Assembly (NCBI GenBank): GCA_031178475.1
Contig: JAPSIX010000002.1
Span: 1-37,548, forward strand
DNA length: 37,548 nt
Source: Microbacterium sp.
GTDB lineage: Bacteria > Actinomycetota > Actinomycetes > Actinomycetales > Microbacteriaceae
Reading direction: 5' to 3'
Part shown: positions 3,123 through 6,353 of the stretch, piece after piece
How the letters are laid out: every line of letters starts with the position of its first letter
Numbering within the stretch: position 1 is the stretch's first letter
Position numbers and translations under genes: made by a program
Notes under the pieces: model-generated
Database searches by the model: none
What the model saw: the letters and a program-made list of their open reading frames with translations, nothing else
What the model was told of the DNA's origin: nothing

Positions 3123-4274
3123 TCAGGCCGTCAGCACCTGAGCCGTGCCGATGGGAGCGTTCGGTCCCATCTCGGCGGCGATGCGGTTCGCCTCCTCGAT
3201 GAGCGTGGGGACGATGTCGGCCTCGGGCACGGTCTTGATGACCTCCCCCTTGACGAAGATCTGCCCCTTGCCGTTGCCGGAGGCGACGCCGAGATCGGCC
3301 TCTCGTGCCTCGCCCGGCCCGTTGACGACGCAGCCCATGACGGCGACCCGCAGCGGCACGGTCATGTCCTTCAGGCCCTCGGTCACGTTGTCGGCCAGTG
3401 AGTACACGTCGACCTGAGCGCGCCCGCACGAGGGGCACGACACGATCTCGAGCTTGCGCTCACGCAAGTTCAGCGACTGCAGGATCTGGTGGCCTACCTT
3501 GACCTCTTCGGCCGGCGGCGCCGACAGCGAGACGCGGATCGTGTCGCCGATCCCCTCGCCGAGCAGGATGCCGAACGCGGTGGCGCTCTTGATGGTGCCC
3601 TGGAACGCCGGGCCCGCCTCGGTCACGCCGAGGTGCAGCGGCCAGTCGCCGCGCTCTGCCAACATCCGGTACGCCTGCACCATCACGACCGGGTCGTTGT
3701 GCTTGACCGAGATCTTGAAGTCGTGGAAGTCGTGCTCCTCGAACAGCGACGCCTCCCACACCGCGCTCTCCACGAGCGCCTCCGGAGTCGCCTTGCCGTA
3801 CTTCTCGAGCAGGCGACGGTCGAGGGAGCCGGCGTTCACGCCGATGCGCAGCGACACTCCGGCGTCGGCCGCGGCCTTCGCGATCGCGCCGACCTGGTCG
3901 TCGAACTTGCGGATGTTGCCCGGGTTCACCCGCACGGCGGCACAGCCGGCGTCGATCGCCTGGAAGACGTACTTCGGCTGGAAGTGGATGTCGGCGATGA
4001 CCGGGATCTGGCTCTTCTTGGCGATGATGTGCAGCACATCGGCGTCATCCTGCGACGGGACGGCGACACGCACGATCTCGCAACCGGATGCCGTCAGCTC
4101 GGCGATCTGCTGCAGGGTGCCGTTGATGTCAGTGGTCTTCGTCGTGGTCATCGACTGGACGCTGACGGGGGCGTCGCCGCCGACGAGCACCTTGCCGACC
4201 CGAATCTGACGGGACTTGCGGCGAGGGGCGAGGACGGCGGGCACACGGGGCATCCCAAGGTTCACGGCTGGCAC
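3123..4274 (-). CDS. ispG: 4-hydroxy-3-methylbut-2-en-1-yl diphosphate synthase (flavodoxin)
   Basis: [31 protein letters not shown]..., C-terminal [11 protein letters not shown] and [15 protein letters not shown] Fe-S motifs; GTG start. Confidence 0.96.
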
Positions 4275-4286: not shown

Positions 4287-4341
4287 CGACGCCCGGATCG
4301 GCGCGGGCTGGATGCCAGCAGGGCGGACGCCGTCGATGTGG

Positions 4342-4347
4342 TAGTTT
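4342..4347 (+). promoter_or_regulatory. Putative -10 box (TAGTTT) of the trp leader transcript
   Basis: TAGTTT-CAGCGC-ATG(4354): TANNNT with a 6-nt spacer to the leader-peptide start. Confidence 0.5.
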
Positions 4348-4353
4348 CAGCGC

Positions 4354-4389
4354 ATGATCACGCACCGCAGCTGGTGGCCCGCCTGCTAG
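4354..4389 (+). CDS. trpL: trp operon leader peptide MITHRSWWPAC*
   Basis: Short ORF atg atc acg cac cgc agc tgg tgg ccc gcc tgc tag with tandem Trp codons, immediately upstream of an attenuator hairpin and an anthranilate-synthase-type gene. Confidence 0.85.
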   Translation: MITHRSWWPAC

Positions 4390-4442
4390 GCGGTGCGTTC
4401 GCGATCTCACAGAACACAGACCGCCCGCTGGGGCGGTCTTTT
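4361..4442 (+). promoter_or_regulatory. trp transcription attenuator with segments 1-4
   Basis: Segment 1 CGCACCGC (4361-4368) complements segment 2 GCGGTGCG (4390-4397); GGCGGT (4389-4394) complements segment 3 ACCGCC (4420-4425); segment 3 AGACCGCCC (4418-4426) complements segment 4 GGGCGGTCT (4431-4439). Confidence 0.85.
4418..4442 (+). terminator. Attenuator intrinsic terminator
   Basis: Perfect 9-bp stem AGACCGCCC/GGGCGGTCT with GCTG tetraloop, running into TTTT. Confidence 0.85.
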
Positions 4443-4472
4443 CGTCTGGCCGCCCGGAATCCAGGAGAACCG

Positions 4473-6353
4473 ATGAACCACCTGACGCCGGACACGCCCT
4501 TCGTGCTCATCGCGCGCCACGGCGCAGACACCGTCGAGCTGCTGACCGGCGACATCGTCGACGTCGAGCTCCTCGCAGACATCCCGCTCACCCGAAACGG
4601 GGAGCCGCAGGAGGTCTTCGCCATGGTTCCGTTCCGGCAGGTGCGCGAGCGCGGCTTCGAGGCGCGGGACGACAACGCGCCGCTGCGCTGCCTGCTCGTC
4701 GACCGCCACGAGCACCTCGACGCCGCCGCCCTCATCGCCGAGCTCCCCTCCGCGCGCATCCCCCTCCGCGACGGCGGATTCGACATCTCCGACGACGAGT
4801 ACGCCGAAATGGTGGAGCGGGTCATCTCCGACGAGATCGGCCGCGGCGAGGGCGCGAACTTCGTGATCCGCCGCGACTACACGGCCTCGTTCGACGCCGA
4901 CGACCGCACGGCTGCGCTGTCGTGGTTCCGCGCTCTGCTGGAGCACGAGCGCGGCGCGTACTGGACCTTCGCGGTCGTCACGCCCGGCCTCGTCGCCGTC
5001 GGCGCCAGCCCGGAAGCCCACGTCGTCGCGCGGGACGGGATCGTCACGATGAACCCGATCTCGGGCACGTTCCGGCATCCGGCCGGCGGCGCCACCCGCG
5101 AGACGCTGACCGAGTTCCTCTCCTCCACGAAGGAGACCGAGGAGCTGTTCATGGTCGTCGACGAGGAGCTGAAGATGATGAGCGCCGTCTGCTCGGACGG
5201 CGGCCGCATCACCGGCCCGCACCTGAAGGAGATGTCGCGCCTGACCCACACCGAGTACATGCTGCGGGGACGCAGCAGGCTCGATCCGCGCGAGATCCTG
5301 CGGGAGACCATGTTCGCGCCGACCGTGACCGGATCGCCGATGCAGAACGCCTGCACGGTCATCCGCCGGTACGAACGCGCACCGCGCGGCTACTACTCCG
5401 GCGTCGCGGCGCTCTTCACTCCGAACGGCGACGGCGGGCACGACCTCGACGCGCCGATCCTCATCCGCACCGCCTACCTCGACGGCGGCACGGTGCGCGT
5501 GCCGGTGGGCGCGACCCTCGTGCGCCACTCTGACCCGCTCGGAGAGGTCGGCGAGACACACGGCAAGGCGGCAGGCGTGCTCGGGGCGATCGGGGCCGTC
5601 GAGCGCGACCTCCCCGCAGACGTCGACCCTGACGCGCCCGTCGCACCCCGCTCCCTCGCCGGAGACCCCGCCATCGCCGCGCTGCTGGCATCGCGGAACA
5701 CCCGACTCGCCGAATTCTGGATTCAGCCGCAGGATGCCGATGGCGTCGGCCCGTTCGCGGGTCGCACCGCGCTGGTCGTCGACGCCGAGGACCGCTTCAC
5801 GACGATGCTCGCCCACCAGTTGCGCCACCTCGGGCTCGACGTTTGGATCGCCGGATGGGACGAGGTGACGGATGCCGCTGTCGATGACGCCGGGATCCTC
5901 GTCGCAGGCCCGGGCCCCGGCGACCCGCGGGACGCGAGCGCGGCGCGCATCCGCCGCATGCGGGAGGTCGTCGCGCGACGCCTGGACGCAGGCAGCCCGC
6001 TGCTGGCCGTCTGCCTGAGCCATCAGATCCTCGCCGACCGGCTCGGCATCGATCTCGTCCCGCTGGACGCGCCGCACCAGGGCGTGCAGAAAACGGTTCC
6101 GGTGTTCGGCGAGGACGCCTCGATCGGCTTCTACAACACGTTCACCGCGCGGGTCGCCCCCGGCAGCACCGCGGCCGGGTCAGCCGAGATCTCCGCCGAC
6201 CCGCTCACTGGAGACGTGTACGCGCTCCGCGGCGAAAGCTTCGCGAGCGTGCAGGGGCACCTCGAGTCGATCCTGTCGCGCGACGGCATCCGCACCCTGG
6301 AGCGGCTGGTGGCGCACGCCGTGAAGCTCAGCCCAGCAGATTCACCGGCTTGA
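4473..6353 (+). CDS. Fused anthranilate synthase-family protein (TrpEG / PhzE-like: chorismate-binding domain plus glutamine amidotransferase)
   Basis: Chorismate-binding domain (GASPEAHVV...MNPISGTFRHPAGG...ITGPHLKEMSRLTHTEYMLRG...TMFAPTVTGSPMQNA) followed by GATase-1 (AGPGPGDPRDAS...LLAVCLSHQILADRLG); ATG at 4473 chosen over the longer track start. Confidence 0.9.
   Translation: MNHLTPDTPFVLIARHGADTVELLTGDIVDVELLADIPLTRNGEPQEVFAMVPFRQVRERGFEARDDNAPLRCLLVDRHEHLDAAALIAELPSARIPLRDGGFDISDDEYAEMVERVISDEIGRGEGANFVIRRDYTASFDADDRTAALSWFRALLEHERGAYWTFAVVTPGLVAVGASPEAHVVARDGIVTMNPISGTFRHPAGGATRETLTEFLSSTKETEELFMVVDEELKMMSAVCSDGGRITGPHLKEMSRLTHTEYMLRGRSRLDPREILRETMFAPTVTGSPMQNACTVIRRYERAPRGYYSGVAALFTPNGDGGHDLDAPILIRTAYLDGGTVRVPVGATLVRHSDPLGEVGETHGKAAGVLGAIGAVERDLPADVDPDAPVAPRSLAGDPAIAALLASRNTRLAEFWIQPQDADGVGPFAGRTALVVDAEDRFTTMLAHQLRHLGLDVWIAGWDEVTDAAVDDAGILVAGPGPGDPRDASAARIRRMREVVARRLDAGSPLLAVCLSHQILADRLGIDLVPLDAPHQGVQKTVPVFGEDASIGFYNTFTARVAPGSTAAGSAEISADPLTGDVYALRGESFASVQGHLESILSRDGIRTLERLVAHAVKLSPADSPA

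Follow-up and report, generated by a model that had tools for sequence, protein, structure and literature searches.

The window, i.e. the whole stretch of 37,548 nucleotides of Microbacterium sp. DNA analysed here, carries an open reading frame of 626 amino acids that is predicted to encode a fused PhzE-type anthranilate synthase, termed trpEG. On one side trpEG has as its neighbour ispG (gcpE, positions 3123–4274, divergent), and on the other a converging gene that by reading is rseP-like. The region ahead of trpEG contains a small leader open reading frame and four segments with complementary sequences (Table 1). Elsewhere in the window, at positions 65–1519, there is an open reading frame that by eye resembles a DUF222/HNH nuclease-type protein.

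Table 1. Features upstream of trpEG and the trpEG gene (positions are those of the window).
Feature	Position	Strand	Details and basis
Predicted extended −10 promoter element TGTGGTAGTTT	4337..4347	+	hexamer TAGTTT, 4342–4347
trpL leader ORF, MITHRSWWPAC and stop	4354..4389	+	tandem Trp codons 4372–4377; predicted transcription start A4354, predicted leaderless
Segment 1	4356..4368	+	GATC 4356–4359 plus ACGCACCGC 4360–4368; MFE fold
Segment 2	4389..4398	+	GGCGGT 4389–4394 for 2:3; GCGGTGCGT 4390–4398 for 1:2; sequence and fold
Segment 3 AGACCGCCC	4418..4426	+	antiterminator with segment 2 or terminator with segment 4
Segment 4 GGGCGGTCT 4431–4439 and T run 4439–4442	4431..4442	+	3′ arm and tail of intrinsic terminator; terminator scan
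trpEG, fused PhzE-type anthranilate synthase	4473..6353	+	Pfam Chorismate_bind and class I glutamine amidotransferase; Shine-Dalgarno AGGAG 4463–4467

The best PDB match of TrpEG is 3r74 (E-value = 2.8e-162), which we take to be PhzE. A Pfam search yields no match beyond Chorismate_bind and GATase even at an E-value of 10, and no TrpE N-terminal domain. Against every NCBIfam anthranilate synthase model the score of TrpEG falls far short of the cut-off, and the protein seems to belong to a clade that has no curated model. Because these cut-offs are far from reached, the name TrpEG rests on context. The 77%-complete genome to which the window belongs (G000) displays three chorismate-binding enzymes; one of the other two passes the PabB cut-off and one the isochorismate synthase cut-off. 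The trp operon of this genome (G000:C306, loci L127 and L129) has the order hisF-hisI-two small ORFs-trpC-trpB-trpA by ORF reading, with TrpC and TrpB confirmed. trpE is absent from this operon, as would be expected if the fused TrpEG, encoded at another site of the genome, had taken its place. Since the operon is without trpE and the other two enzymes fit PabB and isochorismate synthase, we infer that trpEG is probably the sole anthranilate synthase of the genome. Exactly three TrpE-model matches are present in 35/39 genomes of the genus, the same number as in the window genome; only the counts of such matches are informative, because not one of 14 control genomes reaches the TrpE-model cut-off. 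It is a tentative and rather doubtful proposal that in Microbacterium the PhzE-type fusion replaced canonical TrpE and, because no N-terminal TrpE regulatory domain is recognisable (no Pfam match), may rely mainly on the upstream attenuator for feedback by Trp.

Fused TrpEG is present in 148/149 Microbacterium genomes, and its distribution in the family is patchy (9/84 genera at E ≤ 1e-150). Some genomes also have a second PhzE-type gene: G096 (C1:1315409-1317118), G371 (locus L141) and G457 (locus L151). There is no WW leader upstream of the L141 and L151 copies, and the other copy in the same genome has one.

The leader open reading frame, read directly from the window sequence, starts with ATG at position 4354 and ends with TAG at 4387–4389. 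Its translation matches the 11 aa peptide MITHRSWWPAC with tandem Trp codons that had been described in an earlier note on this DNA. In the same sequence CGCACCGC (4361–4368) is complementary to GCGGTGCG (4390–4397), and GGCGGT (4389–4394) is complementary to ACCGCC (4420–4425). Folding shows that the 1:2 stem is really 9 bp in length, with A4360:U4398 added, and has a GAUC:GAUC extension. Segments 3 and 4 form nine perfect pairs with a loop of 4. The T run that follows is short, with four Ts, the first of which doubles as the last base of the stem. Every coordinate that the earlier note gave for the 1:2, 2:3 and 3:4 pairings agrees with these data, the 1:2 stem being even longer than was claimed. 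The 9-bp terminator with TTTT is confirmed by the sequence and by a terminator scan, which detects the site at 4418–4442 (shuffled sequences average 0.1 sites).

The 93-nt window RNA has a minimum free energy of −48.2 kcal/mol, whereas 200 dinucleotide-shuffled versions average −33.7 ± 3.0 and none of them folds as well (0/200; z = −4.8). When a ribosome is placed on the Trp codons and segment 4 is still lacking, the free RNA from 4388 to 4430 folds into the 2:3 antiterminator (−14.1), and a ribosome placed on the stop codon gives the terminator fold; both folds agree with the logic of a switch. By complementarity and by folding, the 1:2, 2:3 and 3:4 pairings are mutually exclusive. Folding of the full-length RNA favours the terminator (−24.4) over a forced 2:3 pairing (−17.1). 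Thus antitermination must be kinetic, as is usual for attenuators. No Rfam family is matched at the gathering threshold anywhere in the window.

The best reading of these features, with a probability of about 0.92, is an attenuator of transcription that works through a translating ribosome, adjusts expression of the monocistronic trpEG to the level of charged tRNA-Trp and is very probably leaderless. Its predicted mode of action, from start site to Trp response, is as follows. RNA synthesis would start at the first base of the leader, A4354. With ample Trp-tRNA the ribosome would reach the UAG (4387–4389) and cover segment 2, so that the 3:4 terminator would form and transcription would end after ~90 nt. 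With scarce Trp-tRNA the ribosome would stall on the UGG pair (4372–4377) and cover segment 1; segment 2, left free, would then capture segment 3 while segment 4 is still to be transcribed, and the polymerase would read into trpEG. Without translation, 1:2 pairing would sequester segment 2 and the terminator would form.

Homologous upstream regions of relatives display the same arrangement. An ATG-started tandem-Trp leader positioned 6–7 nt after a TANNNT hexamer is found in 114/119 of these regions (a spacing of 4–8 nt was permitted in the scan). Three further loci (L100, L103 and L106) have a GTG-started leader, giving a tandem-Trp leader in 117/119 loci overall. The remaining two are L023, which is truncated, and L118, which has no leader. 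L118 (Microbacteriaceae, 1.4 Mb genome G175) is without the attenuator and has a TAGCAT hexamer ~7 nt ahead of the probable start codon (ATG) of trpEG; a deletion of the leader that left trpEG itself leaderless would give such a picture. The distance from WW to the stop is three codons in 113/114 leaders, and GGCGG of segment 2 starts 11–12 nt past the second Trp codon in 111/114. A hairpin is present downstream of the leader in 114/114 relatives, although L115 is a doubtful case and some outgroups have weak T tails. Thus the layout of peptide, stems and spacing recurs, in accordance with the earlier description of a complete attenuator in front of the TrpEG/PhzE-type gene, whose product is predicted, largely from its context, to act in Trp biosynthesis.

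A covariance model, R1, was built from an alignment of 52 diverse sequences (A1). R1 shows one strong copy per genome, at trpEG, in 11/11 genomes, and thus no second copy is found at trpCBA. The next-best R1 match (L243, E-value = 0.0012) lies in what seems to be a coding region and is probably due to chance.

In alignment A1 the outer 1:2 helix and the terminator together display 50 cells changed on both sides, versus 25.1 ± 3.8 in shuffles. The covariation score for 1:2 plus 3:4 is 0.149 versus 0.093 when shuffled (0/500), and slid versions give 0.033–0.071; the shuffle and permutation controls correct for phylogeny only in part. In the terminator helix 93.6% of cells are paired and compensatory changes are present. 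Thus in relatives 1:2 and 3:4 taken together covary above shuffles, as the attenuator proposal would predict. The 2:3 helix is paired in 96.8% of cells. Within the family it varies too little to display covariation, and such near-invariance is to be expected where each base must keep two competing partners. In the Streptomyces group segments 2, 3 and 4 shift jointly, from GGCGGT/ACCGCC/GGCGGT to GGCGGCC/GGCCGCC/GGCGGCC (own-versus-foreign permutation 0.0026).

The 1:2 pairing in relatives is often an outer helix, formed by codons 2–5 with a GTTCGC-type segment around a small hairpin at the stop codon. The CGCACCGC:GCGGTGCG stem of the window is a shifted-register version of it. Because the 1:2 register shifts between species, the outer helix escaped RNAalifold when run on the plain alignment, and 1:2 was therefore assessed by per-helix pair counts and by a register-free duplex test of own versus foreign partners. 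In that test segment 1 with its own downstream segment gives a mean of −14.94, versus −13.75 ± 0.22 with foreign ones. Column covariation of the stop-codon hairpin (CCGCC:GGCGG) is uninformative because one partner is invariant.

The two Trp codons are invariant in 85/85 distinct standard-architecture sequences of the genus, a set selected for WW. Conservation of amino acids outside WW is weak. The third position of codon 2 stays C, with the residue varying among S, L, F, H, R and I; positions 1 and 3 of codon 9 likewise stay C, with P, L, H or R as the residue. As the pairing wobble bases are fixed while the amino acids vary, the constraint on the leader points to the RNA rather than the peptide beyond Trp.

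The earlier note had the transcript probably start at the leader ATG, as no Shine-Dalgarno sequence was seen and TAGTTT lies 6 nt ahead. Both features are present in the window and are kept in relatives; the start at A4354 itself is predicted from them. Leaders of the genus share the promoter consensus TGTGnTAGTTT, and TGTGnTAnnnT is found 6–7 nt before the ATG of 94/106 genus leaders. Information content reaches 1.5–2.0 bits at TGTG, TA and T, and is near background in the −35 region, which is not conserved. An attenuator whose transcript starts further upstream, with the leader translated from a 5′ untranslated region, would fit the window sequence in two respects, i.e. there is no recognisable −35 upstream of the leader and a simple sigma-70 scan finds no promoter there. 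It is nevertheless improbable: the TANNNT hexamer lies 6–7 nt ahead of the start codon in 114/119 loci, compared with a background of 120/4151 for any ATG in the genus loci (mostly the leaders themselves), the TGTG extension is conserved, an SD-like 4-mer is absent from 113/114 leaders (present in 1/114), and the Streptomyces lividans ortholog trpL1 is reported to be leaderless (PMC8079986). Because of the conserved TGTGnTAnnnT motif and the absent Shine-Dalgarno signals, leaderless transcription of the window trpL with a start at A4354 is very likely. That the region is only a terminator and read-through leader which responds to another signal, with the Trp codons in an open reading frame by chance, is the least probable of the alternatives. 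The poor conservation of the peptide outside WW would suit such a reading; the invariance of the Trp codons in the WW-selected genus set argues against it, as does the unselected presence of the leader in 117/119 loci. Leaders with WW or WWW also precede TrpEG in most of the other actinobacterial genera examined; genera with TrpEG include Agromyces, Plantibacter, Jiangella, Blastococcus, Kutzneria, Rhodococcus, Kitasatospora and Streptacidiphilus.

The earlier note also raised the possibility that the attenuated RNA and/or the leader peptide acts in trans on other trp genes, like rnTrpL and peTrpL in Sinorhizobium meliloti. The arrangement is similar, with a monocistronic fused trpE(G) and a predicted leaderless trpL apart from the other trp genes. 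Complementarity between the attenuator RNA and the trpCBA region shows no excess over shuffled attenuators in seven genomes (a crude test), and the leader keeps pairing wobble bases while residues vary, so that the peptide is not visibly selected beyond Trp. Alphaproteobacterial peTrpL peptides are likewise poorly conserved in sequence (PMC7298713). Action in trans is thus quite improbable, and as neither the trpCBA duplexes nor the leader codons give it support, the parallel with S. meliloti is on present evidence one of layout only.

Attenuation of trpEG by translation of the leader thus remains the preferred reading. The classical 1:2/2:3/3:4 logic that had been proposed is backed by conservation, by covariation and by a homologous system studied in Streptomyces. 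It is well supported that the attenuator is real, conserved throughout Microbacterium, and of a kind already known from Streptomyces. It represents a compact example, found in more than 100 species, in which an RNA of ~90 nt, very probably leaderless, would combine a start codon at its very 5′ end with the codons for stalling and the two alternative hairpins. Initiation without a leader would be mechanistically important, since the first ribosome would load on a bare 5′ end and must reach the Trp codons with the polymerase only a few dozen nt ahead. For annotation, the R1 model finds exactly one clear copy per genome of an attenuator that Rfam misses.

No paper on a trp attenuator in Microbacterium was found in the literature searched. 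Classical trp attenuators have been described in Corynebacterium and Streptomyces (PMC1262725). The Corynebacterium trp operon attenuator is, like the one proposed for the window, a classical actinobacterial attenuator that has UGG repeats and depends on the ribosome (PMC1262725), but it precedes multi-gene trp operons, whereas the window attenuator precedes a monocistronic fused trpEG. In the trpLE(G) locus of S. meliloti a leaderless trpL precedes the fused, monocistronic trpE(G), a layout like that predicted for the window; however, its lineage is distant, and the trans functions that RNA and peptide have in that organism (PMC7298713) find no support in the present data. S. lividans leuL1, leuL2, trpL2, thrL and metL are, as predicted for the window, leaderless short open reading frames that contain the regulating amino acid and lie ahead of amino-acid genes, but they concern other amino acids or genes, and several are without a clear terminator (PMC8079986).

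The Streptomyces trpE(G) attenuator shares with the window tandem Trp codons, competing hairpins and a terminator. For S. venezuelae trpE, experimental work on the attenuator is cited (Lin, Paradkar and Vining 1998; PMC1262725; PMC4833913). In S. lividans trpL1 (MFAHSTRNWWWTAHPAAH) is reported to be leaderless on the basis of RNA-seq start sites and precedes a monocistronic trpE (PMC8079986), as is predicted for the window leader. TrpEG orthologs in a group of large genomes (g89) are 51%–54% identical to that of the window and their leader peptide is nearly that of trpL1; the leader MFAHSTQNWWWTAHPAAH before the ortholog at L147 is one residue off it. There are also differences: Streptomyces leaders have three Trp codons and the window has two; the peptide is 18 aa in Streptomyces and 11 aa in the window; segment 2 lies inside the open reading frame in Streptomyces, but in the window its first base is the third base of the stop codon; and segments 2/3 are GGCGGCC/GGCCGCC in Streptomyces versus GGCGGT/ACCGCC in the window. 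The Sinorhizobium precedent to which the earlier note pointed holds for the layout. The closest precedent for the window attenuator, however, is that of Streptomyces.
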